Source: Bradyrhizobium cosmicum (GTDB lineage Bacteria > Pseudomonadota > Alphaproteobacteria > Rhizobiales > Xanthobacteraceae). From it: a stretch of DNA of 64,000 bases. The position numbers and the translations under genes were made by a program. A model generated the notes under the pieces. That model was not told the origin of the DNA and ran no database searches. It worked only from the letters and a program-made list of their open reading frames with translations. The stretch's first letter is position 1; each line of letters starts with the position of its first letter. Below are positions 7,384-35,970 of this stretch, one piece after another. The stretch covers positions 1,922,001 through 1,986,000 of the forward strand of contig NZ_CP041656.2 in assembly GCF_007290395.2 (NCBI RefSeq). Reading direction: 5' to 3'.

Positions 7384-8679
7384 ATGCGTCTTCCGTTCTT
7401 CTACGGCTGGGTCGTGGTCGCCGTGACGTTCGTCACCATGGCCATCGGGGTCAACGCGCGCACCGCCTTTTCATTGTTCTTTCCTCCCATCATTTCCGAG
7501 TTCGGCTGGGAGCGCGGCGTCACCGCGGGCGCCTTTTCCTTTGGTTTCGTGGTGTCGGGCATCGTCAGCCCGTTGATCGGCCGCCTGATGGATCGCGCCG
7601 GGCCGCGCGCGGTGATGGAGCTCGGCGTGGTGCTGATGGCCGGCGGACTGCTGCTCGCCCCGCTCACCAGCGCGCCCTGGCATCTCTACGTGACCATCGG
7701 CGTCATGGTCGGCGCGGGCAGCGTTTGTCTCGGCTATTCCGGCCAGTCGCTGTTCCTGCCGAACTGGTTCATCCGCAAGCGCGGCTTTGCCATCGGCATC
7801 GCCTTTGCCGGCGTCGGCATCGGCTCGGTGACATTGCTGCCATGGGTGCAGCACATGATCGAGCAGACCGGCTGGCGTACCGCCTGTACCGCGATGGGCC
7901 TGCTCATCCTGGTCGTGCTGGCGCCGATCAATCTGTTCCTGCACAGGCGGCCGGAGGACATCGGCCTTCAACCCGACGGCGACGCCGCGCCTTCGGCAGG
8001 TGCGGCAAAGCCGGTTTCCAACATCGTCGATCCCGTCTGGGTCGGTACCGACTGGACGCTGAGGCGGGCGGTTGCGACGGCGCGGTTCTGGTGGATCGCG
8101 CTCGGTTATTTCTGCGGCCTGTATATCTGGTACGCGGTGCAGGTGCACCAGACCAAATTCCTGCTCGACATCGGCTTCAGCCCAAATGTTGCGGTGTGGG
8201 CGCTCGGCACCGTCAGCCTGCTCGGCATTCCCGGCCAGATCGTGCTGGGCCATGTCTCCGACCGGATCGGACGGGAGTGGGTGTGGGCGATCAGCTGCGC
8301 GGGTTTTGTCATCTGCTTCGCGGCGCTGATGGCGCTGAAGTATCACCCCTCGCTCTGGCTCGTCTATCTGATGGTGCTCACGCAGGGCGCGCTCGGCTAC
8401 GGGCTCACCTCGATCATGGGCGCGGTGGTGTTCGAGATCTTTCAGGGCAAGCACCAGGGCAGCATCTTCGGCACGATCATGCTGGCGGCGCTGGCCGGCG
8501 GCGCGGCCGGGCCCTGGCTGACCGGCTTCCTCTATGATCGCACCGGCGATTACACGCTCGCCTTCGTCATCGCGATGGTCGTGAGCGGCTTGTCGGCGCT
8601 GTCGATCTGGCAGGCCTCGCCCCGCAAGGTGCGGGCCGTGGCCGGCCGGCTGCACACGCTCAAAGCCGGAGCTGACTAG
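7384..8679 (+). CDS. MFS transporter
   Basis: A 431-residue major-facilitator protein with about 12 hydrophobic helices. The N-terminal sequence FFYGWVVVAVTFVTMAIGVNAR and the later FLPNWFIRKRGFAIGIAFAG resemble the monocarboxylate/oxalate-formate antiporter branch. The motif between helices 2 and 3 reads GRLMDRAGPR. It starts 90 bases after the GGDEF-EAL gene on the same strand and could share its transcript. The substrate is probably a small carboxylate, but this is inferred from subfamily resemblance only. Confidence 0.85.
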   Translation: MRLPFFYGWVVVAVTFVTMAIGVNARTAFSLFFPPIISEFGWERGVTAGAFSFGFVVSGIVSPLIGRLMDRAGPRAVMELGVVLMAGGLLLAPLTSAPWHLYVTIGVMVGAGSVCLGYSGQSLFLPNWFIRKRGFAIGIAFAGVGIGSVTLLPWVQHMIEQTGWRTACTAMGLLILVVLAPINLFLHRRPEDIGLQPDGDAAPSAGAAKPVSNIVDPVWVGTDWTLRRAVATARFWWIALGYFCGLYIWYAVQVHQTKFLLDIGFSPNVAVWALGTVSLLGIPGQIVLGHVSDRIGREWVWAISCAGFVICFAALMALKYHPSLWLVYLMVLTQGALGYGLTSIMGAVVFEIFQGKHQGSIFGTIMLAALAGGAAGPWLTGFLYDRTGDYTLAFVIAMVVSGLSALSIWQASPRKVRAVAGRLHTLKAGAD

Positions 8680-8818
8680 GTCTCGCGTGCATCAAAATAC
8701 CTTCGCTTCTTTCGCGGAATGTTAAGCATGTCGCGTCTTGGCAGGGCGTAACCCGGTTGCAAAAACGTCTTGGACACCATCGGACCGTTAGCGTCGGAGC
8801 GATTGCCGCTTCTTCCCG

Positions 8819-11422
8819 ATGCTGCCGGGTCTACCGATGTTTGCTTCCGATTACCCAGTGACCGAAATTCCGGATGTGCTGCGCGCTGCGCTCGAATGCG
8901 CCGACGATGGTATCGTCGTCGTCGATGACGCACGCCGCATCACGCATTTCAATGCGAGCGCCGAGAGGATATGGAAGCTTGCGCGCGCCGAGGTGCTCGG
9001 CCGCGACGCAGGCGTCCTCGGCCTCGCATTCCTTCAGGCCGATCCGGTCGCGGATTTCCGCGACGAGATCAGCCTCGTGCGGCCCGACGGCAGCCGGATC
9101 AGGGCGTCGGTGTCGCTGTCGTCCACGACCGTCGGCGGTGCGACCCATCACATCCTGTTCGCGCGCGACGTCACCGCTGAAGCCGAGCGCCGCGTCAGGA
9201 TCGGGCTTCTCAACGCGGTCTCGGACCAGACCAACCGCGCGGTGATCATCACCGATACCGAGCAGAACATCCGCTACGTCAACGCGTCTTTCACGGCGCT
9301 GTTCGGCTATACCAGCGAGGAAGCGGAGGGGCGGCGTGCGGGAGAGCTCATCGCCGGGTGCCATACCAACCGCACGGCCATCGCCAAGCTCTTCAAACGC
9401 CTGATCGACGGCGGTCGCCGCGGCAAGGTGGAGACGCTGGTCTACAACAAGGACGGCGAGGAGATCTGGGTCTGTGCCAGGATCGACGCCTTCCGCGACA
9501 AGAAGGGCCGCGCCAGACACATCTTTGCGCTGATCGAGGACATCACCGAAACGCGGCAGCTGCATTCGCTCCAGCAGCTCATCATGAGCGCGCTCGCTGA
9601 TGAAATTCCGATCGCCGAGATCGCCGACCGGCTGTGCCGCCGGGTCGAGGAGATCGCGCCCGACGTCGTCTGCTCGCTGCTCCATATCGATTCCGCCGGA
9701 CTGATCCATCCGCTCGGTGGCCCCAGCCTGCCCGAAGACTATTCCCGCGCACTGGACGGCGTTGCGATCGGCCCCAATGTCGGCTCCTGCGGCACTGCCG
9801 CCTTCTACGGCATACCGGTGCTGGCGACCGATCTCGACACCGATCCACGCTGGCAGCCTTACAAGGCTGGTCCACTTGGGGTTGGTCTACGCGCCTGCTG
9901 GTCGACGCCGATCAAGGCCAAGGACGGCCGGGTCATCGCCACCTTCGCCTTCTATTTCCGCGAGCCGCGTGCGCCGAGCAACTGGCACCGGCGCATCGTC
10001 GAGGCCTGCGTCAACCTCGGCGCCTTCGCGATCGAGCGCAAGGAGGCGCGCGCCGAGATCGCGCGGCTCGCCTATCACGACATCCTCACCGGCCTGCCGA
10101 ACCGCGCGCAGCTGCGGCACCTGATCACCACGGCGATCGATGCCTGTCCGAACGGCAGCCATGTCGCGCTGGCCTTCCTCGACGTCGACCATTTCAAGGA
10201 CGTCAACGACACGCTCGGTCACGCCGCCGGCGACGAGTTGCTGGTCCAGCTGGCGCAGCGCCTGCGCGAGCATATCGGTCCCGAGGACATGCTGGGCCGG
10301 CTCGGCGGCGACGAATTCGTCATCCTGCTGCCGCAGCGTAACGCCGAGAGCGCCGAGCGCGTCGCGGCCGGGATCATGGAGGCGCTCGCCGCACCTTTAC
10401 GGCTCGGATCGAAGCTGATGCCGATGTCGGCCAGCATCGGCATCAGCCTCTATCCAGATCATGCCACCGACATCGACACGCTGATGCAGCAGGCCGATGC
10501 CGCCATGTACATGGCCAAGCAGGCGGGGCGTTCGACACATCGCATCTTCAGCGCCGAGATGAACGGGCTCGCCGAGCAGCGGCTGGCGCTGATCGCGGCG
10601 CTCCGCCGCGCCGTCGCCGAGGGCGCGCTGACGCTGAACTACCAGCCGCAGATCCGCAGCTGCGACGGCGCGATCCACGGCGTCGAGGCGCTGGCGCGCT
10701 GGCACGATGCCGCGCTCGGCGATGTCTCGCCGGCAAAATTCATCCCGCTCGCCGAGGAGTGCGGCCTGATCGAGCAGATCGGCCTTTGGTCGGTGCGCGA
10801 GGCCTGCCGCCAGATGGCGAGCTGGCGCTCTGCCGGGCTCAACATCCACAGCGTGTCGGTGAACCTGTCGCCGATCAATTTCCGCAACGTCACGCTCGCC
10901 GCGCGGCTCAAGGACATCCTCGCCGAAAACGCGCTGCCCCCGGACGCGCTGATGCTCGAGATTACCGAAGGCACCTTCATGCAGGACGGCGCCGCCGCGC
11001 TGGAGACGATGCATGCGATCCGCGCGCTCGGCGTCGGCCTGTCCGTTGACGATTTCGGCACCGGCTATTCCAGCCTCAGCCGGCTCGCCCATCTGCCGAT
11101 CCGCGAGCTCAAGATCGACCGCAGTTTCATGCGCGACATCGAGCGTGACGCCGGCGCCGTTGCGATCGCCACCGCCGTGGTGCGCGTCGGCCAAGGCCTC
11201 GGCATGACCGTCGTCGCCGAAGGCGTCGAGACGGAAGGTCAGCGCAAGGTGCTGGCCGAGCTCGGCTGCGACGTCGTCCAGGGTTTCCTCTACGCCCCCG
11301 CGCTTCCCCCCGTCGCGTTCGAGCGCTGGCTGATCGAGCATTGCGCCGAGCAGGCGAGGGCGATGCTGGCGCGGCTGGATATGGGGACGGCGGGGCGCGA
11401 CGAGGTGAAGCGGTCGGCCTGA
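8819..11422 (+). CDS. PAS-PAS-GAF-GGDEF-EAL cyclic-di-GMP protein
   Basis: An 867-residue soluble protein: PAS (about 12-125), a second PAS (about 130-255, ending in the PAC-like DITETRQ), GAF (about 270-410, containing SCGTAAFYG), GGDEF (DVDHFKDVNDTLGH; RLGGDEFVIL) and EAL (GVEALARWHD; SVDDFGTGYSS). It lacks transmembrane segments and so senses cytoplasmic cues. The I-site position reads GPED, with the Arg replaced by Gly. The start at 8819 is ATG, with ATG 8837 as an alternative. Only an MFS gene separates it from another GGDEF-EAL gene. Confidence 0.9.
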   Translation: MLPGLPMFASDYPVTEIPDVLRAALECADDGIVVVDDARRITHFNASAERIWKLARAEVLGRDAGVLGLAFLQADPVADFRDEISLVRPDGSRIRASVSLSSTTVGGATHHILFARDVTAEAERRVRIGLLNAVSDQTNRAVIITDTEQNIRYVNASFTALFGYTSEEAEGRRAGELIAGCHTNRTAIAKLFKRLIDGGRRGKVETLVYNKDGEEIWVCARIDAFRDKKGRARHIFALIEDITETRQLHSLQQLIMSALADEIPIAEIADRLCRRVEEIAPDVVCSLLHIDSAGLIHPLGGPSLPEDYSRALDGVAIGPNVGSCGTAAFYGIPVLATDLDTDPRWQPYKAGPLGVGLRACWSTPIKAKDGRVIATFAFYFREPRAPSNWHRRIVEACVNLGAFAIERKEARAEIARLAYHDILTGLPNRAQLRHLITTAIDACPNGSHVALAFLDVDHFKDVNDTLGHAAGDELLVQLAQRLREHIGPEDMLGRLGGDEFVILLPQRNAESAERVAAGIMEALAAPLRLGSKLMPMSASIGISLYPDHATDIDTLMQQADAAMYMAKQAGRSTHRIFSAEMNGLAEQRLALIAALRRAVAEGALTLNYQPQIRSCDGAIHGVEALARWHDAALGDVSPAKFIPLAEECGLIEQIGLWSVREACRQMASWRSAGLNIHSVSVNLSPINFRNVTLAARLKDILAENALPPDALMLEITEGTFMQDGAAALETMHAIRALGVGLSVDDFGTGYSSLSRLAHLPIRELKIDRSFMRDIERDAGAVAIATAVVRVGQGLGMTVVAEGVETEGQRKVLAELGCDVVQGFLYAPALPPVAFERWLIEHCAEQARAMLARLDMGTAGRDEVKRSA

Positions 11423-11438
11423 GGCCGATGCATGGCGG

Positions 11439-12215
11439 CTATTTCCCGGTCTGCTCGCTGCGATACCAGGGGAACAGCCGATACAGCAACTGCACGAAGA
11501 GCGTATCGGCGATGAAGCCAAGGATGGCGAGCACGACGACGCCGACGAAGATGGTATCGACGCGGAACGACAGCGCCGACATCTGGATCAGGTAGCCGAG
11601 GCCGGCGAGCGCCCCGGCCAATTCCGCGGCCACCAGCACCGTGAACGACATCGACAGGGCCACCCGCATTCCCGAGAATATCGGCGCGAGCGCCGCGGGA
11701 ATGACGACTTTCAGCAGCAGCGTGGCGCGTCGCGCGCCTAGGCTTTGCCCTGCGCGAATGAACAACGGATTGACGCCTTTCACACCGAGCAGCGTGTTGA
11801 TCCAGACCGGAAAGAATGTCGCCCATCCGATCAGGGATATCTTGGCTCCCTCGTTGACGCCGAACCAGAAGATGATCAGCGGCACCAGCGCGAGCGGAGG
11901 GATCGCGCGCGCCATCTGGAGGATGGGCCCGACCAGCGATTCCAGGAACGTGCTGCGGCCGAGCAGGACGCCCATGAGAATCCCGAGGCTCGATCCGGCG
12001 GCGTAGCCGAGCGCCATCCGGAAGATGCTGGCGCGGATGTGGTCCTGCAGCTCCCCGGTCCTGGCGATGGCCAAGGCAGACCAGAACACCTCGGCAGGCG
12101 AGGGCAGCATGACCCGGTCGACCAGGCCGCTGACGGCGATCAGATGCCAGAGCAGGAAGAAGCCGCCGATGCCGAGGACGCTGATGACGGCGCTTCTGAC
12201 CCGCCTGGTGTCCAT
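11439..12215 (-). CDS. ABC transporter permease, NitT/TauT type
   Basis: A 258-residue inner-membrane permease of the nitrate/sulfonate/taurine (SsuC/TauC) family. It has about six helices and the cytoplasmic EAA-type loop (AGQSLGARRATLLLKVVIPAALAPIFSGMR in meaning; key residues Gly, Ala and Pro). I start at ATG 12215, seven bases after the ATPase stop, where MDTRRV begins; longer versions would overlap the ATPase gene. It is the last gene of the operon that also encodes the ATPase and binding protein. The substrate class is organic nitrogen or sulfur compounds, not resolvable here. Confidence 0.9.
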   Translation of the reverse strand: MDTRRVRSAVISVLGIGGFFLLWHLIAVSGLVDRVMLPSPAEVFWSALAIARTGELQDHIRASIFRMALGYAAGSSLGILMGVLLGRSTFLESLVGPILQMARAIPPLALVPLIIFWFGVNEGAKISLIGWATFFPVWINTLLGVKGVNPLFIRAGQSLGARRATLLLKVVIPAALAPIFSGMRVALSMSFTVLVAAELAGALAGLGYLIQMSALSFRVDTIFVGVVVLAILGFIADTLFVQLLYRLFPWYRSEQTGK

Positions 12216-12222
12216 CCTGATC

Positions 12223-13008
12223 CTAGGAACTCTCAAGACCGATTTCGGCTTCGAAACGGTCGTAGAGGCGAGAGAACTCGACGGAGGTGCGAGCACGAGG
12301 CTTCTCCATATCAATCGTCACGTCGGACACGACGCGGCCCGGGTTGGGTGACATCACGAGGACGCGGTCGGCGAGCCTGATCGCCTCGTCGATATTGTGC
12401 GTTACGAACAGGATCGTGGGCCGCTCGAGCTCGTGGATGCGGATCAGTTCGAGCTGGAGCTTGCTTCGCGTCATGGCGTCGAGTGCGGCGAAAGGCTCGT
12501 CCATCAGCAGCACTTTCGGCCCGGCTGCGAGGGCGCGGGCGATCGCGACGCGTTGCTTCATGCCGCCCGACAATTGCGTCGGATAGCTGTCGGCAATATG
12601 TCCGAGATTGACCAGATCGAGATAGTGCATGGCGCGCTCGCGGCGTGCGGACGCGCGCATGCCGGCGATATCGGGACCGAACTCGATATTCTTGAGCACC
12701 GTGAGCCAGGGAAACAGCGAGTAGTCCTGGAACACCATGCCGCGATCGGGGCCGGGGCCGTCCACCACCTTGCCGTTGACGAAGACATAGCCGTCGGTCG
12801 GCGCCAGAAAGCCGGCGATCAGGTTGAGCAGCGTGGTCTTGCCGCATCCGCTCGGGCCCAGCAGGCAGACGAACTGGCCGAGCGGAATCGTCAGCTTGAC
12901 GTTGCCCAGCGCCAATTGCCTTGCGTCGAACCGGAACGAGACGGAATCGACGTTGATGAAATCGGGAATCGGGACGAAGCCCTGTCTCTGGAGCGCTTGC
13001 CCAATCAT
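12223..13008 (-). CDS. ABC transporter ATP-binding protein, NitT/TauT type
   Basis: A 261-residue ATPase with Walker A GPSGCGKTT, Q-loop MVFQDYSLFPW, signature LSGGMKQR, Walker B VLLMDEP and H-loop VTHN, all intact. It drives the permease encoded downstream and is fed by the binding protein upstream. Its start overlaps the binding-protein stop by four bases, so the genes are translationally coupled. The sequence is typical of SsuB/TauB ATPases. Confidence 0.93.
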   Translation of the reverse strand: MIGQALQRQGFVPIPDFINVDSVSFRFDARQLALGNVKLTIPLGQFVCLLGPSGCGKTTLLNLIAGFLAPTDGYVFVNGKVVDGPGPDRGMVFQDYSLFPWLTVLKNIEFGPDIAGMRASARRERAMHYLDLVNLGHIADSYPTQLSGGMKQRVAIARALAAGPKVLLMDEPFAALDAMTRSKLQLELIRIHELERPTILFVTHNIDEAIRLADRVLVMSPNPGRVVSDVTIDMEKPRARTSVEFSRLYDRFEAEIGLESS

Positions 13009-13976
13009 GATCGCCTCGCGTCGGCCAGCACGGTGGGATCGAGATAACTGGCGTAGTCGGGTATGGGGGAGCCCGGCCGCGCGATGCCTTCGGCAAGCGC
13101 CCAGTTGGCCTCATCGGTCATCTTGGCGATCATCACTTGCGGGTCCAGCGACAGGCCGATCTGCATGCGGCCGATCGCATCGGCTGCGACCGCCGCATCC
13201 ATCTGCGAGAACTGCGCCCCGATGCGCACCGCTTCCTCGCCATTCCCGCGAATGAAGGCGCAGGCCTGGTCCAGCGCCCTCAGCGCCTTCACCAGGGCAG
13301 GTCGCCGTTCCTGCAAGGTCTTTTCGTTGACGATGATCGAGGCGAAGATCTTGTTGAGGCCGGGCTCGCTGAGGCGGTGGAATTTGTTCCCTGGGAGCTT
13401 GGTCGCCTGGGTCAGAAACGGCTCCTGCCAGACGAAGCCGTCGATCGAGCCGCCGCTCAGGGCCGACATCATTTCCGCCGGGCCCAGCCGCACGATGGAA
13501 AGATCGGACGGACCGAGATTGTATTTCTTCAGCAGCAACGAGAAGTAATATTGCGACGGGTTCGCCTGAACCACCGCGATCCGCTTCCCCTTCAGATCTG
13601 CCGGGGTCTTGATCGCGGTCGAGCAGACGAGCTCCATGTTCTCGACCTGATTGAACGCCGCGATGATCTTGACCGGCGTCTTGCTGAAGGCCCCGACGCA
13701 GACCGACATCTCGGTCGACACGCCGATATCCGCAGCGCCGCCCGAGACCGAGATGAGGGTTGCAGTTCCGTGGGGTGACGGGATGGTGGTCGGTGCGATG
13801 CCTTCGGCCTGCCACAGCTTGCGCTCGTAGGCGACGTAAAGCGGCAGCCACGCGATCGGCAGATCATGAACAATGCGCAGCGGCGCAGGATCGTCGGCGT
13901 GAGCGGAGCGAAGGCCGCTTCCGAGCGCGGCGATCAGCATTGCGGTCGCATGACGTCGTGTGATGTTCAGGTTCAT
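13005..13976 (-). CDS. periplasmic binding protein, NitT/TauT (SsuA/THI5-like) type
   Basis: A 323-residue NMT1/SsuA-like solute receptor. The export signal contains ITRRHATAM followed by a hydrophobic run and AHADD, a possible twin-arginine signal. The mature part has LRIVHDLPIAWLPLYVAYE, typical of the fold, then GTATLISVSGGAADIG. I start at ATG 13976 rather than the longer 14024 version because the signal peptide begins there. It is encoded 63 bases after the MOSC/reductase gene and presumably imports that enzyme's substrate or the nitrilase's. The ligand is unknown. Confidence 0.88.
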   Translation of the reverse strand: MNLNITRRHATAMLIAALGSGLRSAHADDPAPLRIVHDLPIAWLPLYVAYERKLWQAEGIAPTTIPSPHGTATLISVSGGAADIGVSTEMSVCVGAFSKTPVKIIAAFNQVENMELVCSTAIKTPADLKGKRIAVVQANPSQYYFSLLLKKYNLGPSDLSIVRLGPAEMMSALSGGSIDGFVWQEPFLTQATKLPGNKFHRLSEPGLNKIFASIIVNEKTLQERRPALVKALRALDQACAFIRGNGEEAVRIGAQFSQMDAAVAADAIGRMQIGLSLDPQVMIAKMTDEANWALAEGIARPGSPIPDYASYLDPTVLADARRS

Positions 13977-14039
13977 GGTGCATCCCTTGACAAGCAGAAA
14001 TCCGGCCGGCATCGCGCGCGTCATTGATGGCCGCGCGAC

Positions 14040-15740
14040 CTAGAGATCGAGAACGAGGTCTTCGGTGAGAGGAAAACCACAGCATAGAAGCGCTTCTCCT
14101 TCGGCCAGCGCGGCGACCGGCTCGAATTCGTAACCGACCTCGCCGGAGATCACCTTTGCAACGCAGGCGCCGCAGACACCGGAACGGCAGTCGCTATTCA
14201 CAGGCACGTTTTCCGCTTCCGCCAGTTCGAGCAGCGAGCCGATGCTGTTCATCTGCAAGGATCGTTCCGACCGTGCGAACACGACGCGCGAATGCCGGGG
14301 CCTTTTTGGCGGTCCTGCGGCCGGCGTTTTTCCAGCCGCAGGCCCGAAAACCTCAGTCATCACGCGAATACCGGGCGCCCCGATGTCGTTGATCCAGCTG
14401 GAAACGTCGGACATGAAGGCGAGGGGGCCGCAGACATAGACATTGCACGCGCCGAGCGGAGCGACGATCTTGCGGATCAGGTCCTTGTCGATCCGGCCGA
14501 CGCTATCATGCGTGACACCGATCCGATCGGTCGCCAGCGGCCGGCTGAAGCGCGTGTGAAACCGGACCGAGGGATGCCTCGCGCCGATGTCGGACAATGG
14601 CGTCTTGAACGCCTGGTGATGGGAGTTCCTGGTGCAATGGACGAACGACACGCTGGCCGGGACGATTCTCGCTCCATTGTTGGTCGTCGCTGCCTGCAGC
14701 ATCGCCATAACGGGCGTAATGCCGACACCTGCTGAGATCAGGACAAGCGGCGCATCGCTCGATGTGTCCAGCCTGAACGAGCCGCGCGGGCCGAGCACGC
14801 TGAGCCGGTCGCCGGCCTTGACGGAGTCATGCAGCCATTCCGAGAAGCCGCCGGTCTCGCGCTTCACGCTGATCTGAAGAACTGTTGCGGCAATGGCGGA
14901 GATCGAATAGGGCCGCGATGTGCTCTGTCCGCTGCGAACGACGAGATGCTGGCCGGGCACCGCAACGGGAGTTCCGTTGCCGTCGGCGGGAGCGAGTTCG
15001 AACGAGCGGATCTGCGCTGTCTCGTCCCGGACCCCGACGACGGTGAACTCCCGGAACGCGTTCTGCTTGGCCACGGCTTCCCTCGCAAGGGCTGCCGCCT
15101 GGACCTGGGCGCGCCAGTTGCCGGCAAGCTCCGGCAAGCCCGCGAGCTCGCGCAAATCGGCGAGGTCGGCGTCCGGGGCGATGCTCAGGTCGTTGACGCG
15201 GCGGATGCTCCAGTCCGGATACAGCCGGCGCACCAGGATTGCGTCATCGCCTGTGGCGATCGAACCGCTCTTCAGGACGCGATAGTACCATCCGCACCGG
15301 CCGGCCTCGACCAGCCGGCGCGGCAAACGCAGATCGTTGAATCGCAATGCGAGCTTGAAGCACGGTTTCCGGGGGCGCGTGACCTGAAGCAGCGTCTGGC
15401 CGATCTGAACGATATCGCCGATACAGACGTTGGTCTCTTCCCAGCCGTCCATCGCGAGATTTTCGCCCAATGCTCCCGCATCCCAGAGCCCGGCATGCTC
15501 CGGAAATTCTGTCGTCCAATCCCGGTAGTGCGACAGCGCATAGGCGTAGATCGCCATGTCAGGGCCGCCGTGAACCCGCAGGTCTGCCTGTTCGTCGCCG
15601 GTGAAGCCCGAAACGCCTGCTTCGATTGCGCCGGACACGCGCGTCTTCACGAACGCACTGGGCACACTGCCCTTGCCCAGCGGCGCAGAGCGGCCGACGA
15701 AAATTCCATCGATTCGAGCGTTAATCACAGGCCTATCCAT
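14040..15740 (-). CDS. YiiM-type MOSC domain fused to ferredoxin-NADP reductase and [2Fe-2S] ferredoxin
   Basis: A 566-residue, three-part redox enzyme. Residues about 1-160 are a MOSC domain of the YiiM type (GFTGDEQADLRVHGGPDMAIYAY; GENLAMDG), with the expected molybdenum-cofactor Cys in RPRKPC at about 127. A three-helix YiiM segment follows (WSIRRVNDL to about 205). Residues about 225-460 are an FAD/NAD(P)H reductase (RPYSISA; GVGITPVMAML), and the C-terminus is a plant-type ferredoxin with Cys at DCRSGVCGACVA and a later LLCCG. The known relative YiiM reduces N-hydroxylated bases, so this is probably a self-sufficient reductase of N-hydroxy compounds; that is inference. It starts 32 bases after the nitrilase stop. 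Confidence 0.85.
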   Translation of the reverse strand: MDRPVINARIDGIFVGRSAPLGKGSVPSAFVKTRVSGAIEAGVSGFTGDEQADLRVHGGPDMAIYAYALSHYRDWTTEFPEHAGLWDAGALGENLAMDGWEETNVCIGDIVQIGQTLLQVTRPRKPCFKLALRFNDLRLPRRLVEAGRCGWYYRVLKSGSIATGDDAILVRRLYPDWSIRRVNDLSIAPDADLADLRELAGLPELAGNWRAQVQAAALAREAVAKQNAFREFTVVGVRDETAQIRSFELAPADGNGTPVAVPGQHLVVRSGQSTSRPYSISAIAATVLQISVKRETGGFSEWLHDSVKAGDRLSVLGPRGSFRLDTSSDAPLVLISAGVGITPVMAMLQAATTNNGARIVPASVSFVHCTRNSHHQAFKTPLSDIGARHPSVRFHTRFSRPLATDRIGVTHDSVGRIDKDLIRKIVAPLGACNVYVCGPLAFMSDVSSWINDIGAPGIRVMTEVFGPAAGKTPAAGPPKRPRHSRVVFARSERSLQMNSIGSLLELAEAENVPVNSDCRSGVCGACVAKVISGEVGYEFEPVAALAEGEALLCCGFPLTEDLVLDL

Positions 15741-15772
15741 TGCCTAGTCGCCGCGCGGCGGTCCGGACGTCT

Positions 15773-16819
15773 TCATTCCGCCGCTTGGGGCGCGCGCGAC
15801 CAGGCACCCGCCGGATCCTCGGTGAGATCGAGGTCCAGATGCTCGCGCCGGCCGCGGGCAGGCGCGAACGTCACGGGATCGTTGGTGGAGCGATCGACCG
15901 TCAGGTTGAAGATGTCGAAGCGGTTCATGTAGCCGGCGAGGTCGTGGAATTGCTTCTGCACGATGCAATCGTTGATATCGATATCGGCGTAGAGAATGCC
16001 TTCCTCGTCCCTTAGCACCGGAGCCTTCAGCTCGGCGCTCGGCCCCATGATCATGGTCGGGTTGCGTTCGCCCGCATCCATTCTGGCGCGGAGCTCCTTG
16101 TCGCCTTCCGCGAGGATGTCCTTCGCGGTCTCCGTGAGGAACATCGAGGCGGCGATCGTGAATACCTTGGCCTCGGTGCAATGGGCCTCGGTGCGGATGC
16201 GCACGCCTTCCGCAAGGCTCATGTTACCGCCGTTCAGCCATGTCGAGGGATAGGTCGCGATGTGAACTTGCTCGCCTTGCGCCATCAGCGCATGACGGGC
16301 CAGCGGGTTGCAGTTCTCCGCGCAGATGAGCGCACCGATACGTCCAAGCGGCGTGTCGACGACGCGCAGGCCCGCGCCATCGCCGTTCGCCCAGGTGAGC
16401 TTCTCCATGTAGGTCGGAACGATCTTGCGATGGTGATTGAGCAGCCGGCCGTCGCTTCCGATCAGGATGTTCGTGTTCCAGAGGCAGCCGATGCTGGCCG
16501 TCGTACCCTCGTTGATCCCCATCGAGATCACGATTTCGCGTCGCTTGGCAAGCTCGGCGAGACGACGCACTTCGGGGCCCGGGACGTGCACGGCCGCAGC
16601 CGCGAGACGGCGGAAATAGTCGTGGTTGAAGCCCGGAGCCCGCAGCGAGTGCCAGATCGGGAAGCACGGAATGAACGCCTCGGGGAACACGACCATGCTG
16701 GCGCCGTTGCTGGCAGCCTCCTCGATCAGGGAGCAGGCCTTGTCCACGGTCTTCGCAGTGTCGAGGAAGACCGGGCTCGCATGCATGGCCGCGACTTTGA
16801 ACTTGGGGTAGGTCCGCAT
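15773..16819 (-). CDS. nitrilase / carbon-nitrogen hydrolase
   Basis: A 348-residue nitrilase-superfamily enzyme with a Glu-Lys-Cys triad visible: E47 in VVFPEAF, K132 in NHHRKIVPT and C166 in LICAENCNPLAR. The usual Trp after the catalytic Cys (CWE) is Ala here. Length and motifs fit branch-1 nitrilases or cyanide-hydrolysing relatives, which turn a nitrile into carboxylate plus ammonia. It is the first gene of a run that continues with the MOSC/reductase and the ABC importer, and a LysR regulator is encoded upstream on the same strand. Amidase activity is an alternative. Confidence 0.85.
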   Translation of the reverse strand: MRTYPKFKVAAMHASPVFLDTAKTVDKACSLIEEAASNGASMVVFPEAFIPCFPIWHSLRAPGFNHDYFRRLAAAAVHVPGPEVRRLAELAKRREIVISMGINEGTTASIGCLWNTNILIGSDGRLLNHHRKIVPTYMEKLTWANGDGAGLRVVDTPLGRIGALICAENCNPLARHALMAQGEQVHIATYPSTWLNGGNMSLAEGVRIRTEAHCTEAKVFTIAASMFLTETAKDILAEGDKELRARMDAGERNPTMIMGPSAELKAPVLRDEEGILYADIDINDCIVQKQFHDLAGYMNRFDIFNLTVDRSTNDPVTFAPARGRREHLDLDLTEDPAGAWSRAPQAAE

Positions 16820-16993
16820 CGCGACGCTTCCTTTTCCATTGAAGATGCGTCCTTATCGAGGGAACGGAGGCGGACTCTCAAGTCCAAATAGTTCACTGGC
16901 CGGGCGGCTTTGTTGGGCACAAACGCCTTATGACGCGGTCAATTTTGCTTATCAGCCGACGGCTCGCCGGCCGGGAAGACCTGCGACAATCGG

Positions 16994-17935
16994 TCAGGTT
17001 CGGTAGCGGTCGAGCTGCTTTCCGATCAGTGCCTCTTGCGCGACCTCGACGAACGCCCGGACGTTCGGCGAGATCGGGTCACGCTCGTGAATTACGAGAC
17101 CGATCGTCGCGGTGGTCGCGGGATTGACGATCGGGATGGAGCGGATGAACAGCCAGTCGCCGAGCAGGTAGAAATAGGAATGTGGCACGATGGTCAGCCA
17201 ATTGCCGGTCCGCATGTGGGCGAACAATCCCAGGCTGCAATTGGTCTCGATCACAGCCTTTGGCGTGACGCCGACGCTCGAAAAGATCCGGTCGATGATG
17301 ATCCTGTTGTGCAGGTTCGGGCTGAGCAGACATAGCGGCAGCTCGCCGACCTCGGCCCAGTCGATCGATGTCCTGTCGCTCAGGAAGTGATCCTTCGGGA
17401 CCAGCAGATAATAATTTTCGTCGTAGAGCGTGTAGGGTCTCAGGCCGCCGAGGGTGATCCCGTCGAGATAGGTCACGCCCACGTCGTATTCGAACTCCTT
17501 CAGGCCGCGTTCGATCTCCGGCATCGTCTTGCAGAGTACGGAGATCGTGATGCCCGGATAGCGTTCGGCGAACGGCGCCGTCAGCAGCGACGTGATCGAC
17601 ATCGCGACCGGCGACAGAGCGAGGCGCAGGCTGCCCTTCAATTCGGTGTCGTTGTCGTGCTGGCTCGCGTTCAGCAGCCGGTCATGGTCGGCAAGCGATT
17701 GCCTCGCCCAGCTGAGGATTGCCTCTCCCTCCCGCGTGAACCCCTGAAATCCGCTCTGGTGCCGGAGCACGATGGGCGTGCTGAAATGCTTTTCGAGATG
17801 CTGGATAGCCTGCGAAAGCGCAGACTGGCTGATCGCCAGGGCACTCGCCGCACGGCCGAAATGCCGCTCTTTCGCCAAAGTGACCAGATATTGAAGGTGC
17901 TTGAGTTGCACGCCGATCTCCGAAAAGCCCGGCAT
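16994..17935 (-). CDS. LysR-family transcriptional regulator
   Basis: A 313-residue LysR regulator: an N-terminal winged helix (VQLKHLQYLVTLAKERHFGRAASALAIS in meaning, with SQSALSQAIQHLEKHF as the recognition part) and a C-terminal ligand-binding domain. ATG 17935 is used; the upstream 15 codons are not conserved-looking. The gene sits 174 bases upstream of the nitrilase on the same strand and diverges from the MFS gene at 18136, so it probably regulates one or both. The inducer is unknown. Confidence 0.88.
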   Translation of the reverse strand: MPGFSEIGVQLKHLQYLVTLAKERHFGRAASALAISQSALSQAIQHLEKHFSTPIVLRHQSGFQGFTREGEAILSWARQSLADHDRLLNASQHDNDTELKGSLRLALSPVAMSITSLLTAPFAERYPGITISVLCKTMPEIERGLKEFEYDVGVTYLDGITLGGLRPYTLYDENYYLLVPKDHFLSDRTSIDWAEVGELPLCLLSPNLHNRIIIDRIFSSVGVTPKAVIETNCSLGLFAHMRTGNWLTIVPHSYFYLLGDWLFIRSIPIVNPATTATIGLVIHERDPISPNVRAFVEVAQEALIGKQLDRYRT

Positions 17936-18135
17936 AGTCTGGCGACGATCGATGCGGCGATCAAGTAGGCGTTCGGCCACGCTCTGCCCGATCCCCCGGC
18001 AGCGGACATTCGCCGATTGGAGGACTTGGTCCGGCCGCGCCCGGGAAGCAATTATCAGGGGCGCCTCAGCGACAAATCAAGGTTTTCTCAAAGTCTTCTG
18101 CCGCGCGCGTGTCATCATTGCGCGAAACCGGACCC

Positions 18136-19353
18136 ATGAGGCAGAAAGCTCGTCAGATGTTGCGATATCGCGCCTGGTACACGACGGGATCCGCGGCGCT
18201 GATGCTCGCGATGATCATGGGCACCCTGGTCAACGGTCTCACGGCGTTTTTTGTCGCAATGGAGGCGGCCGAAGGTTGGGGCCGCTCTGAAATAGCCGCG
18301 ATCAACAGCTTCGGACTGCTCGGTATCGCGGCCGGAAGCGTGATCATGGGATTCGTCTCCGACCGTCTTGGCATCAGGCCGATCTGTCTGATCGCAGTGG
18401 CCGTCATGGGCGCCTGTCTGCTCCTGACCGCCTATGCCGATGCGCCCTGGCAGCTTTATGTAATCTTCTTTCTGGCCGGAGCACTCAGTGGAGGCGCGCT
18501 CTTCGCCCCGATCTTTGCGACGGTAGGAAACTGGTTCCCGACGTCAGCCGGCCTCGCCATCGGGGTCGCCGCCGCAGGGCAGGCCGTTGGCCAGGGTGGT
18601 GTGCCCTTCCTCTCCGCCTATCTCATCGAGCGCTTCGGCTGGCGCGGCGCGATGATCGCATTGGGAACGGCGATCCTTGTGACGCTGCTGCCATTGGCTG
18701 CGTTCATGCGCGACGCGCCGGCGGCCACCGCCAGCGGTGCAGCAGCACAGATCCCTCAGATCCGACCGAGCGTCGCCGTTCCCATCCTCAGTGTCGCGGT
18801 CTTCTTCTGCTGCGCCTGTATGGCGGTCCCACTCATGCACCTGATGCCGATGATTCAGGGCCTCTGCATCCCCGCGACCGATGCGGGCGGCGTCATGCTC
18901 GCCATGCTGCTTGCCGCCATCGTCGGCCGGATCGCATACGGAAAGCTGTGCGACATGATCGGCCCGCTTTCATCGTGGGCGGTGGCGTCGTCGCTCCAGA
19001 CCGCCGGAGTCCTGGCATTCACGCAATTCGCATCGTTTCGCGGGTTCTTGATCTTCTCCATCGTGTACGGGTTCGCTTACGCCGGGGTCATGACCAGCGT
19101 GCTGGTCTCTGCGCGGGCTCTGACTCCGCCCGCGCGCCGCGGAGCGCTGATGGGAATCATCCTGGCCTTTGCCTGGATCGGCCACGCATTCGGCGGATAT
19201 CAGGGCGCCGCGACGTTCGATCTGACCGGCAGCTATACGACGGCTTTCGCGATCGGCTCTGCGGCCGGTGTTCTGAATTTGGCTCTTGTGATGACGCTGC
19301 TGGTGCTCTCGCATCGTCGCAATCTGCCGGCTGCTGCGAGTGCGTTGACCTGA
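18136..19353 (+). CDS. MFS transporter
   Basis: A 405-residue major-facilitator protein with 12 hydrophobic helices and the loop motif GFVSDRLGIR between helices 2 and 3. It diverges from the LysR gene with about 200 bases between starts, an arrangement that suggests LysR control. I start at ATG 18136; a GTG nine codons earlier is possible. The substrate is unknown, but its position suggests import or export connected with the nitrilase cluster. It ends 15 bases from the convergent TetR gene. Confidence 0.82.
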   Translation: MRQKARQMLRYRAWYTTGSAALMLAMIMGTLVNGLTAFFVAMEAAEGWGRSEIAAINSFGLLGIAAGSVIMGFVSDRLGIRPICLIAVAVMGACLLLTAYADAPWQLYVIFFLAGALSGGALFAPIFATVGNWFPTSAGLAIGVAAAGQAVGQGGVPFLSAYLIERFGWRGAMIALGTAILVTLLPLAAFMRDAPAATASGAAAQIPQIRPSVAVPILSVAVFFCCACMAVPLMHLMPMIQGLCIPATDAGGVMLAMLLAAIVGRIAYGKLCDMIGPLSSWAVASSLQTAGVLAFTQFASFRGFLIFSIVYGFAYAGVMTSVLVSARALTPPARRGALMGIILAFAWIGHAFGGYQGAATFDLTGSYTTAFAIGSAAGVLNLALVMTLLVLSHRRNLPAAASALT

Positions 19354-19368
19354 AGCTTCAGGTGCCGT

Positions 19369-19980
19369 TCACTCCGCCGCCAGCCCCGTCCTCCGCCGCA
19401 AATCCGTGATCGCGCGCAGAAAGCTGTCCGCCGGCGTGGTCTCCGGATCGATCAGCCGGTGCAGCCGAAAGCCGTCTTCCAGCGCCAGCACGACGGAGGC
19501 CATCCAGGGCGGGTTCAGCGAGCCGTTCTTGCCGTTGCCCTTCAACGTCGCCTCGACGATGTCGGCAATCAGCTTGCGCCGGGCGCGCAGGCGTTTTGCG
19601 AGTTCCGGGCGACGCTTCTCGGCGCGCGCGACGAACAGGATCATCTCCATGTGGAGCAGGGGCGAGCGGCCGAGCGGGTCCTGCCTGGTTCGGTCCATCG
19701 CCTTCAGCGCCGCGATGAAATCGTCGAGATTGTCGTGCTGCGCCAGGATGTCCATGTTGCGCCGGATCGACTGCTCGACATGGTCTTCGAGCATGGCGAT
19801 GATCAACTCGTCCTTGCTCCTGAAATTCGAATAGAACGCGCCGCGGGTGAACCCCGCGGCGGCCGCGATCGCCTCGATGCTGGCGCCGCCGATGCCGTCG
19901 GCCTCGAACACGTGCGCCGCGGCCTCGAACAGTCTGTCGCGTGTGTCGTCCCGTGTCGGTCTGGTTCTCACCCTTGACAT
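19369..19980 (-). CDS. TetR-family repressor, divergent from P450
   Basis: A 203-residue TetR-family protein. The N-terminal helix-turn-helix reads ASIEAIAAAAGFTRGAFYSNFRSKDEL, followed by a ligand-binding all-helical domain. It is divergent from the P450 gene, with 128 bases between start codons. A perfect inverted repeat lies in that gap (20008-20025). The likely role is repression of the P450 and possibly of itself, relieved by a hydrophobic ligand. The ligand is unknown. Confidence 0.9.
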   Translation of the reverse strand: MSRVRTRPTRDDTRDRLFEAAAHVFEADGIGGASIEAIAAAAGFTRGAFYSNFRSKDELIIAMLEDHVEQSIRRNMDILAQHDNLDDFIAALKAMDRTRQDPLGRSPLLHMEMILFVARAEKRRPELAKRLRARRKLIADIVEATLKGNGKNGSLNPPWMASVVLALEDGFRLHRLIDPETTPADSFLRAITDLRRRTGLAAE

Positions 19981-20004
19981 CGGCGCAGGCTAGGGCAGAA
20001 TGCA

Positions 20005-20028
20005 ACTCGATACAACAATGTATCGTGT
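20005..20028. promoter_or_regulatory. candidate TetR operator (inverted repeat)
   Basis: CGATAC (20008-20013), a six-base spacer and GTATCG (20020-20025) form a perfect inverted repeat. Two more pairs match outside after one mismatch (AC at 20005-20006 against GT at 20027-20028). It lies between the divergent TetR and P450 genes, about 25 bases from the TetR start and 80 from the P450 start, where a TetR repressor usually binds. Confidence 0.65.
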
Positions 20029-20108
20029 TGATAATTTCAGGGATGGTTACGCGGGCATCGGGGGCGGCCGGCGTATTCGTGTCATGCGGCAACCGATGTG
20101 AGGTCACC

Positions 20109-21341
20109 ATGAACGAGCAAGCGCAACCCGCAGGCGGCGATCCGCTGTTCAACCCGCTGGCGCCGGACTTCATCCGCGATCCCTATCCGCACTACGACCG
20201 GCTGCGCACGCTCGATCCGATCCATGTGACGCCGTTCGGCCAGTTCGTCGCCAGCCGCCATGCCGACGTCAGCCTCGTGATGCGCGACAGGCGCTTCGGC
20301 AAGGACTTCGTCGAGCGCTCCAAGCGCCGCTACAGCCCGGCCATCATGGACGAGCCGGTGTTCCGCAGCATGAGCCACTGGATGCTGCAGGCCGATCCGC
20401 CCGACCATACCCGCCTCCGCGGCCTCGTCGTCAAAGCTTTCACGGCGCGCCGGGTCGAGGACATGCGACCGCGCATCCAGGAGATCGTCGATCAGGCCAT
20501 CGATGCCGTGATCGATCGCGGCCACATGGACCTGATCGAGGATTTCGCCTTCCGCCTGCCCGTGACCATCATCTGCGACATGCTCGGCATCCCCGAGGAT
20601 CATCGCGAGGTCTTTTACAAGAGCTCGCGCGACGGCGGCCGGCTGCTCGATCCCGTGCCGCTCTCGAAGGAGGAGATCGCCAAGGGCAACGCCGGCAACA
20701 TGATGGCGCAGATGTACTTCCAGCAGCTGTTCGAGCTGCGCCGCAAGACTCCCGGGGACGACCTCATCACCCAACTGGTGCAGGCCGAGGAAGACGGCAA
20801 CAAGCTCAGCAACGAAGAGCTGACCGCCAACATCATCCTGCTGTTCGGCGCCGGCCACGAGACCACCGTCAACCTGATCGGCAACGGCTCCCTGGCGCTC
20901 CACCGCAATCCGGACCAGCTCGCGCTGCTGAAGGCGCGGCCGGAACTGATGGTCAGTGCCATCGAGGAGTTCCTGCGCTACGATTCCTCGGTGCAGATGA
21001 CCGGCCGCGTCGCGCTGGAGGACATCGACGATCTCGGCGGCAAGAAAATCCCGAAGGGCGAGACCGTGCTTTGCCTGCTGGGCTCGGCCAACCGGGATCC
21101 CGCGGTCTACCCCGATCACCCCGACAGGCTCGACGTCCTCAGGCAGAACGTCAGGCCGCTGTCATTCGGAGGCGGCATCCATTTCTGCCTGGGTGCCCAA
21201 TTAGCGCGCATCGAGGCCGAGATCGCCATTGCGACGCTGCTGCGGCGCCTGCCCGATCTGCGCATCGACGACGTCGAGAACCCCAAATGGCGGTCGACCT
21301 TCGTGCTGCGCGGCCTGACGGAGCTCCCCGCCAGCTGGTAG
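20109..21341 (+). CDS. cytochrome P450
   Basis: A 410-residue soluble bacterial P450. The I-helix oxygen-activation motif is LFGAGHETTVN, the K-helix ExxR is in EEFLRY, and the haem-ligand loop is LSFGGGIHFCLGAQLA with the thiolate Cys. The start MNEQAQPAGGDPLFNPLAPDF at ATG 20109 is typical of the class. No ferredoxin or ferredoxin reductase is adjacent, so electrons must come from partners elsewhere. The substrate is unknown; it is probably controlled by the divergent TetR. The next gene is 139 bases away. Confidence 0.95.
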   Translation: MNEQAQPAGGDPLFNPLAPDFIRDPYPHYDRLRTLDPIHVTPFGQFVASRHADVSLVMRDRRFGKDFVERSKRRYSPAIMDEPVFRSMSHWMLQADPPDHTRLRGLVVKAFTARRVEDMRPRIQEIVDQAIDAVIDRGHMDLIEDFAFRLPVTIICDMLGIPEDHREVFYKSSRDGGRLLDPVPLSKEEIAKGNAGNMMAQMYFQQLFELRRKTPGDDLITQLVQAEEDGNKLSNEELTANIILLFGAGHETTVNLIGNGSLALHRNPDQLALLKARPELMVSAIEEFLRYDSSVQMTGRVALEDIDDLGGKKIPKGETVLCLLGSANRDPAVYPDHPDRLDVLRQNVRPLSFGGGIHFCLGAQLARIEAEIAIATLLRRLPDLRIDDVENPKWRSTFVLRGLTELPASW

Positions 21342-21480
21342 GCCGGGGCCGTTAACCTCCGCGCGCAACAGTCGCTGTGACTTCGCCACACTTCCCCATA
21401 TATAAGGGGCTGTTCCGGCGCGCCTGAAACCTTCCAGGTCAAGGTTTGGCCCGGGTCACGGTTTGGCCGAGGGGAGACCC

Positions 21481-24400
21481 GTGCAGACGACGCTGCTCGG
21501 ACTGGCGATTGCCTTCATCTTGGCGCTGCTCGCAGCGCTGATCGGGCCTTACTACATCGACTGGAACCAGTTCAGGCCCCAGTTCGAAGCGGAGGCCGGC
21601 CGGATCATCGGCGTGCCGGTGCGGGTGGCGGGCGAGCTCGACGCGCGGCTGTTGCCGGCGCCGACCCTGCGGCTGCGCGCGGTTACCTTCGGCGGCAACA
21701 ACGATCTCGGCCGCCTGCGCGCCGACAAGCTCGACGTCGAGTTCAGCCTCAGCTCCCTGATGCGCGGCGAGTGGCGCGCCACCGAGCTGACCGTCAACGG
21801 CATGGCGGTGGATCTCGGCCTCGACGCCAGGGGCCGGGTCGATCTGCCGTCCACCGCGAGCGGCACCTTCAATCTGGCCTCGCTGGCCATCGAACGGCTC
21901 AACCTCACCGGCCGCATCGCCCTGCACGACGCCGCCAGCCGCTCGACGCTGGAGCTCAACGACATCGCCTTCTCCGGCGACGTGCGCTCGCTGGCGGGCT
22001 CGGTGCGCGGCGACGGTCGATTCACCGCCGCCGGGGTCCGCTACCCGTTTCGCGTCTCTTCCGGCCCGAGCGCCGACGGCAGCGCCACCCGTCTCCACCT
22101 CAACATCGATCCCGGCGAGCGCGCCATCCTCGCCGATGTCGAAGGCGTGCTCGCCTTCGACAACCGCCTGCCGAAATTCGACGGGGCGCTGACGCTCGCC
22201 GTGCCGGCGACCAGGAAGGCGGGTGAGGCGGGGCCGACGCCGTGGAAGCTCACGACAAAGCTCAAGGCCGATCCGGCCGGGGCCAAGTTCGATCAGGTCG
22301 ATGTGAGCTTCGGCGCGGATGACAACGCGTTGAAAGTCGGCGGCGTCGGCGATCTCAGGTTCGGCGCCTCGCCGCTGCTGCGCGCGGTGCTGTCGGCGCG
22401 CCAGGTCGACGCCGACAAGCTCGCCGGCAAGGGCGATGCCGAGCCGCTGCGGATCCTGCCGGCGCTGCGCGCGGGCCTCGCCGCGATCCCGCAGGCGCCG
22501 ATCCCGGCGCAGATCGAGTTCAACTCCGACCAAATCATGCTCGGTGGCCGTCCGCTCCAGAACATCACGACGGAGCTTCAGACCGACGGCCGGTCCTGGA
22601 CCTTCCAGCGGCTCGAGCTGCGCGCGCCCGGCATGACGCAGCTGTCGCTCAACGGCGCCACGCCCGGCGCCGACAGTTTCAGCGGCCGTCTCAGCGTGGA
22701 GTCGGCCGACCCGGATACGCTGGTGGCGTGGCTCCAGGGCCGCAGCGAGGTCAACCGCCGCAGCACGCGGCCGCTGCGGCTTGCGGGCGACGTGACGATC
22801 GCCGCCAACCATCTCGCCATCGACAAGCTGAAGGCCGATATCGAAGGCGGCGCGGTCGAGGGCCGCATCGCCTTCGTCCAGACCGGCGCAAGCAGAGGCT
22901 CGCGGATCGACGCCGAGCTCAAGGCCGACCGTCTGGATCTCGACGCCGCCGCGAGCTTTGTCCGTGCGCTCGGCGGCCCGCAAGGCGAATGGCCGGAGGA
23001 GGCAAAGCTGTCGCTCGATGTCGGCCGCGCGATCTCCGCGGGCCAGGAGCTGCGGCCGTTCACGGCAAAGCTCGGCTACGGCCCGGCGGCGCTGTCGCTG
23101 GAGCAGTTGCGCTTCGGCCAGGCCAGCGGCGTGACCACCGAGGCGAGCGGCGGCTTCGACCGCGTCAAGGCCACCGGCAGGCTCGCGCTGAAATCCTCCG
23201 CCGGTTCGCTGCGCGAGCTCACCGCGCTGCTCGAGCCGTTTGCGCCTGCGGTGCGCGCACGCTTCGATACCCTCCCTCCGCTGCCCGGCGCGACCCGCCT
23301 GAAGTTCGACCTCAGCCTCGACAGGAATGCGGAGCATGCCGATCGCAGCGACGCCCGCGCCGTGCTCGACCTCGACGCGCCGCAGCTCAAGGCCACCGCG
23401 ACGCTGGTCGCGCAAACGCCAGCCGCTGCCGTCGACGGCATCGACATCGACCGCTTGCGCAACAGCGACTTCACGCTGGAGTCGAAAGCCTCGACACCGC
23501 AGGCCGGTGCATTGCTGGCGCTGCTCGGGCTCGATCGGGTGGTGGCCGCAGGCGAGGGTGCCTCGCAGTTCGAAGGCAAGGTCACCGGCGCCTGGCGCCG
23601 GCCGCTGCAATTGACCGCGAAGCTCGGCGGCGGCGGCGGCCTGGATGCGGATGCGCAAGGCAGCGTCGATCTGTCCGCGCCGGAGCCAAAGGCCAGCGTG
23701 AACCTGCGCGTGCGCAACGCCAATCTGGCGCCGTTGTTCGGCACCAGCCCGACCGACAAATCGACCCGGAATGTCAGCCTGTCCTCGCGCGTCGGGCTGT
23801 CAGGCAACCGCCTGACCTTCGACGATCTCGACAGCAGCGCGGCCGGCTCTCATCTGCGCGGTCATCTGTCGGTAACGCTGGATCAGGAGAAGGGCGTTGA
23901 CGGCGAAGTCGGCCTCGACACGCTCGACCTGATGCCGGCGCTCGCGATGGCGATTGGCGCTGCCGGACATGATGCCGGCGAGGCGTTGAGTCCCGGGCTT
24001 CTCGGCGGTTGGCGCGGCCGCGTCGCATTCCAGGCGTTGCGCGGGACGCTGCCAGGCGGCATCGAGCTGCGCCCTGTCGGTGGGATTATCCGGAGCGACG
24101 GCCAGTCGCTCGCGCTCGATGCGCTCAAGGGCGGCATCGGCGGCGGCGAGATGTCGGCAAGCCTTGACGCGCGGAATGGCGCCAACGGCCTCGCGCTGAA
24201 TACGCGCATCGATCTCAGCAATGTCGATGCGACGACGCTGCGTTACCGCGATCTCGCGCTGCCCAAGGGACGCGCCTCGATCCAGATGGCGTTGACGAGC
24301 CAGGGCCGCAGCGTTGCGGCATTGACCGGCGCACTCGCCGGCAACGGCACGGTGACGCTGGAGTCCGCCGAGATCGCCGGCCTCAATCCGCGTGCTTTCG

Positions 24401-33360: not shown

Positions 33361-33389
33361 GGCCGGTCGGATTCGAGCGGACCAGAACC

Positions 33390-35967: not shown

Positions 35968-35970
35968 CCG

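Follow-up and report, generated by a model that had tools for sequence, protein, structure and literature searches.

The 64,000-nt stretch of DNA analysed here, referred to throughout as the window, belongs to the 7.27 Mb, single-contig genome of Bradyrhizobium cosmicum and carries on its minus strand, from 17935 down to 11439, a row of six genes recognised from the open reading frame (ORF) list and from Pfam and NCBIfam models: a LysR-type regulator, a nitrilase, a fusion of a YiiM-type MOSC domain with a FAD/NAD(P)H reductase and a [2Fe-2S] ferredoxin, and the periplasmic substrate-binding protein (SBP), ATPase and permease of a NitT/TauT-type ABC importer. The six genes are probably one transferable, co-regulated unit, because their order is kept in a second genome, their linkage recurs on other contigs, an upstream element is common to both genomes and the whole block is absent from a sister genome. 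The reading that we lean towards, on the evidence of sequence, is that an importer, a molybdoenzyme that reduces N–O bonds and brings its own electron supply, and a nitrilase together make up one nitrogen-release pathway, carried as a horizontally moved catabolic cassette. What is new is the coupling of the fused reductase to a nitrilase and an importer, and not the architecture of the reductase. An earlier note on this DNA had described the same row down to 11439; its ORFs, domains and coordinates agree with those given here, and the catalytic motifs proved intact on checking.

Layout, linkage and transfer of the six genes

The row, all on the minus strand, opens with the LysR-type regulator (16994–17935; PF00126 and PF03466), followed after 174 nt by the branch-1 type nitrilase (15773–16819, 348 aa; PF00795, 142.1 bits, E=2.6e-41), the fusion (14040–15740, 566 aa; PF03473, PF03475, PF00970, PF00175 and PF00111), the SBP (13005–14024; PF09084), the importer ATPase (12223–13008; PF00005) and a TauC/SsuC-like permease (11439–12314; PF00528). 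From the nitrilase to the permease, the intergenic gaps, for the ORF starts adopted here, are 32, 15, −4 and −92 nt, the permease start being uncertain; an NMT1-type SBP, an ATPase and a single permease in one tightly spaced row identify the importer as belonging to the NitT/TauT type.

A genome of the same family and another genus (G840) holds all six genes and keeps the order nitrilase, fusion, SBP, ATPase and permease, with LysR following the permease; between the window and G840, the nitrilases are 87% identical, the fusions 55%, the SBPs 65%, the ATPases 82%, the permeases 74% and the LysR regulators 76%. An operator-like element of two sites on the minus strand, TGATAAG-N14-TCATAAG (16927–16954), precedes the nitrilase start by about 107 nt; a LysR tetramer would fit the 21-nt spacing of its repeats. 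The element is the single match in the window at two or fewer mismatches (the chance mean is 0.03, and one match was reached in 3 of 100 shuffles), and the exact form occurs once in the 7.27 Mb genome. Genome-wide, matches at up to two mismatches number six, against three for the reversed control, and since the count at one or two mismatches is near that of the control, only the exact site is taken to count. The exact element also stands upstream of the G840 nitrilase, although LysR lies elsewhere there, and among 158 loci it was found in six, each of which is either the window site or the G840 site.

The sister genome G454 matches positions 4001–11422 and 18047–24000 at 86% identity in a blastn comparison of 4001–24000, whereas the accessory interval between these flanks, 11423–18046, which encloses the cassette, is unmatched; a tblastn search with the cassette proteins against the corresponding stretch of G454 gave no match. 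In the place of the cassette G454 holds 3.5 kb of other DNA (L179 9230–12739), including an HD-domain gene, so that this locus may be a variable one. Within 11300–18200, none of the repeats (16 nt or longer) stands at both cassette ends in a way that would identify a mobile element, and composition is little informative because the G+C ranges of the cassette bins (0.61–0.66) and of the flanks (0.63–0.72) overlap.

Linkage was also followed on public contigs, two proteins being judged to share a contig solely when their contigs are of equal size; for each protein the best matches were compared, namely 120 (of 3484) for the nitrilase, 120 (of 152) for the fusion and all 42 for the SBP, and the pair counts are lower bounds. 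At least 14 fusion–SBP pairs, at least five credible nitrilase–fusion pairs and at least seven nitrilase–SBP pairs (on six contigs) were obtained, and contigs 8131, 6616 and 64633 hold all three proteins among the matches listed. A sixth nitrilase–fusion pair (P0055/P0233) was set aside as chance, its contig being short (2216 bp) and its fusion 33% identical. In a tree of 65 fusions, the 14 SBP-linked and the five nitrilase-linked members, G840 and the window copy all fall into one clade of 43 rows (100/99), the other 22 rows being unlabelled and the SBP search being one that would have missed distant SBPs. Of 70 nitrilases placed in a tree, those linked to a fusion form part of one clade of 16 rows (99/96); P0042, a distant member of it, has 61% identity to the window nitrilase and is linked through equal-size contigs to a fusion (P0143, 57%) and an SBP (P0265, 53%). 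If contig links of this type are right, the association of nitrilase, fusion and SBP is old.

The earlier note had proposed a search for the same gene order in other genomes, and had held that a lack of nitrilase and fusion together in related genomes would speak against its reading. The linkage of nitrilase, fusion and importer recurs in G840 and on the public contigs, and the supposed lack is therefore not borne out in full, but the recurrence is rare.

The nitrilase, the fusion and the importer

In the nitrilase, residues E47, K132, E139 and C166 are all present and do not vary among 23 aligned sequences; the Glu-Lys-Cys triad within the CN_hydrolase domain (E47, K132 and C166, accompanied by E139) places the protein in branch 1. 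Its closest PDB relatives are nitrilases, a cyanide dihydratase and NIT4, and it does not reach the Nit6803 model (TIGR04048; 227.9 bits, cut-off 502.6). The same genome has a second nitrilase, 56% identical to the first (C1:1115674–1116639), with apparently Liv-type ABC importer genes next to it.

The fusion scores above cut-off for both the MOSC domain (PF03473, 7e-33, 113.6 bits) and the YiiM 3-alpha domain (PF03475, 1.2e-7, 31.9 bits), and its remaining parts are recognised by PF00970 (1.1e-4), PF00175 (3.5e-14) and PF00111 (1.3e-9). Its motifs are intact, namely the MOSC cysteine C127, which we take to be the residue that binds the molybdenum cofactor, RPYS, GVGITP, CGP and the ferredoxin cysteines C518, C523, C526 and C553; across 48 aligned fusions (47 of the 120 listed database fusions and that of the window), no substitution is seen at C127, R276, Y278, G338, G340, C437 or the four ferredoxin cysteines. 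Among PDB structures, YiiM is found over residues 14–185 and the flavin–[2Fe-2S] module of the phthalate dioxygenase reductase/CYP116B type over the rest, and the predicted structure has a mean pLDDT of 91. By these features the protein looks like a self-supplied molybdenum reductase, and it is probably a cytosolic molybdoenzyme with a built-in electron supply.

The earlier note had regarded the fusion of electron donors to YiiM as a departure from the normal arrangement. The domains are confirmed, whereas their unusualness was overstated and is rejected here, since the architecture is known: another protein of the same genome aligns to residues 25–566 at 37% identity, 75 plasmid records match the fusion at E 1e-40 or better, with the annotation 'MOSC and FAD-binding oxidoreductase domain-containing protein' on 16 of the 20 rows listed, and databases already contain YiiM-like proteins that carry flavin and [2Fe-2S] domains, Q89NR8 being the example given in the relevant passages of a review (PMC10637980). 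According to the same passages, all MOSC proteins studied in vitro had N-reductive activity.

The nearest folds of the SBP are TauA and SsuA, at 17–20% identity, which allows no ligand call. The three best NCBIfam models for the ATPase (SaoA, ntrCD and the taurine ATPase) are all below cut-off, as are TauC for the permease (156.7 bits, cut-off 342) and CynR, the best model for LysR (133.9 bits, cut-off 277).

The cassette is bordered downstream by an 867-aa ORF on the opposite strand (8819–11422), GGDEF-like by motif alone, and upstream by an MFS gene, likewise on the opposite strand (18109–19353), which is probably not part of the cassette since it is 91% conserved in the cassette-free sister genome. 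The adjoining region 18109–21341 consists of this MFS transporter (plus strand), a TetR regulator (minus) and a cytochrome P450 (plus). Rfam at gathering scores gave no match over 8000–22000, and the promoter and terminator scans gave results near chance level. Elsewhere, the window holds Liv branched-chain-type ABC importer genes with a TetR-type regulator ORF behind them (32098–37330, plus strand) and a tmRNA gene (44830–45186, minus strand), marked tmRNA* by ARAGORN, with the tag peptide ANDNFAPVAQAA.

A proposed nitrogen-release pathway and its weighing

In the proposed pathway, LysR would control the genes of its own cassette, and the ABC importer would take a small, probably acidic, N-oxygenated and/or nitrile compound into the cytosol. 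The fusion would pass electrons from NAD(P)H via FAD and [2Fe-2S] to the Cys-bound molybdenum cofactor, which would reduce or cleave an N–O bond, a chemistry suggested by the family relationship to YiiM, mARC and YcbX, and the nitrilase would hydrolyse the C≡N group carried either by that compound or by its product, yielding a carboxylate and ammonia. The likely substrate class would be plant and soil N–O/nitrile metabolites, such as aldoximes, amidoximes, hydroxamates, isoxazolinones or cyano-acids. The earlier note had already suggested a nitrogen-release pathway made of nitrilase, N–O reductase and importer; of this, the linked and transferable unit holds up, and a parallel with an aldoxime-dehydratase-family enzyme is described below, whereas the order of the steps, reductase and nitrilase included, and the use as a nitrogen source are what we infer. 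That note could not name the gene combination, and term searches of the literature supplied no name for it, returning no paper that combines a nitrilase with YiiM, or a nitrilase with 'MOSC domain' and 'gene cluster'; the parts themselves are known.

Several observations weigh against this pathway, and they include the rarity of the cassette in sequenced genomes. Among the 397 genomes drawn from the order, a nitrilase occurs in 19 and a fusion in nine at E 1e-60 or better, and both occur in four (the genome of the window, G112, G340 and G352), on separate contigs in the other three; in a draw of 265 genomes of the genus, the fusion at E 1e-95 is limited to the genome of the window, G431 (43%) and G436 (39%), and no nitrilase lies near the latter two fusions within the 16.5 and 19.5 kb read. 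Neither of these draws yielded a further cassette, the fusion is present in none of 20 other genome stretches around related nitrilases, and G840 is the sole other carrier in two overlapping draws of 391 family genomes, made with the fusion and then with the SBP. A profile search of genome contigs with the fusion, with generic MOSC genes among the matches listed, gave nitrilase and fusion together at none of 80 loci, some of them short; a scan of viral contigs gave one partial MOSC match only, and the plasmid records contain neither a close fusion (E 1e-80) nor the SBP (E 1e-30). In addition, the SBP of G840 is split over two frames (L120 7726–8678), which makes it a pseudogene or an assembly error, and the unequal divergence of nitrilase and fusion (87% against 55% identity to G840) may mean that parts have been exchanged. 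Co-occurrence on the public contigs is judged by equal contig sizes only, and co-transcription by gene layout. Finally, the listed NCBIfam models are below cut-off for all six proteins (best 25 for LysR and ATPase), and the SBP is distant from those with a known ligand.

Some of these points bear on an alternative, unlikely on balance, in which reductase and nitrilase are separate, the fusion and the importer being the core and the nitrilase a passenger or variable accessory. The far larger divergence of the fusion than of the nitrilase between the window and G840 agrees with it, as does the excess of fusion–SBP pairs (14) over nitrilase–fusion pairs (five) among the matches listed. Nevertheless, a missing nitrilase means little given the limited lists compared (the best 120 of 3484 for the nitrilase, 120 of 152 for the fusion), and when the contig data seem to be cluster representatives only, and the apparent lack of the nitrilase on contigs with fusion and SBP was discarded as unusable for these reasons; moreover, the nitrilase, fusion and SBP of the P0042/P0143/P0265 set lie on equal-size contigs even at 53–61% identity, and the block-wise absence in G454 covers all six genes.

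A role in the detoxification and use of aldoximes and nitriles is about as improbable; here the fusion would reduce an aldoxime to an imine (giving aldehyde and ammonia), and the nitrilase would take the nitrile form of the same compound, of plant or microbial origin. A plasmid of B. barranii (L136 1005–8029) carries an aldoxime-dehydratase-family gene (PF13816; OxdA model 212 bits, cut-off 600) flanked by a Liv-type importer on one side and a related nitrilase on the other, in the place that the molybdenum enzyme has in the window, and a relative 55% identical to the encoded enzyme lies near a nitrilase in another genome (G097, L150). However, the B. barranii enzyme found no match in the window by tblastn, no heme aldoxime dehydratase is among the nine proteins scanned, and the B. 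barranii importer is of the Liv and not of the NitT type.

Related nitrilases and known systems

The earlier note had missed a parallel theme, the pairing of related nitrilases with a SUOX-family molybdoenzyme on rhizobial plasmids. Plasmid nitrilases about 45–53% identical to that of the window adjoin such an enzyme (PF00174 and PF03404; 327–354 aa), the two being 3 kb apart in Methylobacterium. Among plasmid records of the SUOX-family enzyme at E 1e-45 or better, a nitrilase lies within 5 kb in 55 of 59 and within 200 nt in 49 of 59, and the enzyme lies within 5 kb in 45 of 60 nitrilase plasmid records (the best 60 of 107), many of these records being near relatives so that the counts are not independent events. 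Against over-reading the theme, only one of 20 genome stretches around related nitrilases has the enzyme. The neighbours vary with the lineage and include an NrtA-type importer in Bosea and Bradyrhizobium, and the literature searched gave no name for these pairs. Other related nitrilases stand directly behind an ActP-type symporter, on plasmids of Klebsiella, Burkholderia glumae and Cupriavidus.

From these relatives a legume-exudate version of the pathway can be drawn, which we hold to be doubtful, a shade below the two alternatives above. An N-substituted isoxazolinone would be imported, the molybdenum enzyme would cut its N–O bond, or the free ring would open to cyanoacetate, or both, and the nitrilase would convert the cyanoacetate to malonate and ammonia. 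The opening of a free isoxazolinone ring to cyanoacetate is taken here from general chemistry. All gene-neighbourhood evidence for this version comes from relatives: on a plasmid of the legume-root Variovorax EBFNA2, nitrilase and SUOX-family enzyme have as neighbours an operon annotated as malonate decarboxylase, a cystathionine beta-lyase-like pyridoxal phosphate (PLP) gene and a DUF485/ActP symporter; on plasmids of Rhizobium, Neorhizobium and Sinorhizobium, the pair occurs with RidA (in R. bangladeshense found by tblastn only, in two pieces), a cysteine-desulfurase-like (class-V) PLP enzyme and LysR, the set lying near homoserine genes on pRL8; and in a Bradyrhizobium from Acmispon, with an NrtA-type importer, a methylmalonate-semialdehyde dehydrogenase and a nitronate monooxygenase. 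Pea roots secrete BIA, an isoxazolinone whose N–O heterocycle bears an alanine side chain (PMC9935904). A PLP beta-lyase with RidA, a nitrilase and a malonate decarboxylase would dismantle a BIA-type compound through cyanoacetate and malonate. The six cassette genes nevertheless belong to other families, queries with RidA, the class-V PLP enzyme and nitronate monooxygenase gave no match across the whole window, and the SUOX-linked nitrilases lie in other clades than that of the window. Many pRL8 genes are induced specifically in the pea rhizosphere, but the main text of the expression paper names no nitrilase (PMC3333776), and a term search of the literature on pRL8 and the pea rhizosphere found no mention of one. 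A NodA query gave no match in the genome of the window, and a control query matched nowhere either. Because the accessory genes are absent from the cassette and the window nitrilase is in another clade, the legume isoxazolinone/cyanoacetate chemistry, the boldest candidate, stays a lead of low probability.

Least probable by far is a protective role, in which the fusion would detoxify N-hydroxylated bases (6-hydroxylaminopurine) like YiiM/YcbX of E. coli and the importer would serve something else: 6-hydroxyaminopurine reductase (NF008577) is the second-best NCBIfam model of the fusion (150.8 bits, cut-off 294 not reached), but the fusion lies in a tight gene row with importer and nitrilase, and two other MOSC genes of the same genome could serve.

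It may also be proposed, with little confidence and by joining these themes, that soil and root bacteria handle N–O/nitrile allelochemicals of the legume type (isoxazolin-5-ones, cyanoacetate and perhaps 3-nitropropionate) with a modular system composed of an importer, an interchangeable N–O enzyme and an ammonia-releasing nitrilase, in which the N–O enzyme would be a YiiM-MOSC protein with built-in reductase, a SUOX-family molybdoenzyme or an aldoxime dehydratase; the window would hold the MOSC form. As regards the nitrogen-release pathway preferred here, MOSC enzymes are widespread and their natural substrates mostly unknown, and linkage, the common upstream element and block transfer tie this one to an importer and a nitrilase, so that the physiological substrate should be findable through the SBP ligand, induction or deletion. 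That nitrilases on symbiotic plasmids are paired with another family of molybdoenzymes is a hint that molybdenum may serve the nitrogen metabolism of the rhizosphere in a way that has gone unrecognised.

Among known systems, the SUOX–nitrilase pairs resemble the cassette in having a related nitrilase with a molybdoenzyme adjacent or near, in some cases with a NitT-type importer and LysR, and the SUOX and MOSC families both hold the molybdenum cofactor via a cysteine; they differ in that their molybdoenzyme is of the PF00174/PF03404 type, has no built-in reductase and accompanies nitrilases of other clades. The nitrilase of the window has no such neighbour: the PF00174 gene picked up there by the SUOX queries is SoxC (28902–30233), over 12 kb away. 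This SoxC-type sulfite dehydrogenase (TIGR04555, 482.8 bits, cut-off 420) and the cytochrome c gene that follows it (28902–30768, plus strand) look like an ordinary sulfite oxidation pair. The aldoxime–nitrile pathway consists of an aldoxime dehydratase and a nitrilase, and its clusters likewise place an N–O enzyme next to a nitrilase, with an importer in B. barranii, whereas the window has no heme dehydratase and would have a reductase as its N–O enzyme. The nit1C cyanide-assimilation cluster of Pseudomonas has a nitrilase of this superfamily that serves nitrogen assimilation, but, as described in the part of PMC10138600 that deals with it, includes radical SAM, GNAT and AIR-synthase-like partners and a sigma-54 regulator; the nitrilase of the window has none of these partners, its neighbours being LysR, the fusion and the ABC genes. 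The YiiM-like flavin/[2Fe-2S] proteins such as Q89NR8 have the same domain content by review description (in the passages of PMC10637980 cited above) and by plasmid annotation, a likeness by description alone, and the window copy stands apart from other such fusions in lying within the 43-row clade that contains all labelled importer- and nitrilase-linked members. The self-sufficient P450s of the CYP116B type also join a catalytic domain to a flavin/[2Fe-2S] module of the phthalate-dioxygenase-reductase type, as judged from sequence and fold, with a P450 where the fusion has a MOSC domain. In summary, the cassette brings known parts together in a combination that differs from the known clusters for nitrile or N–O utilisation and that is recurring and mobile.

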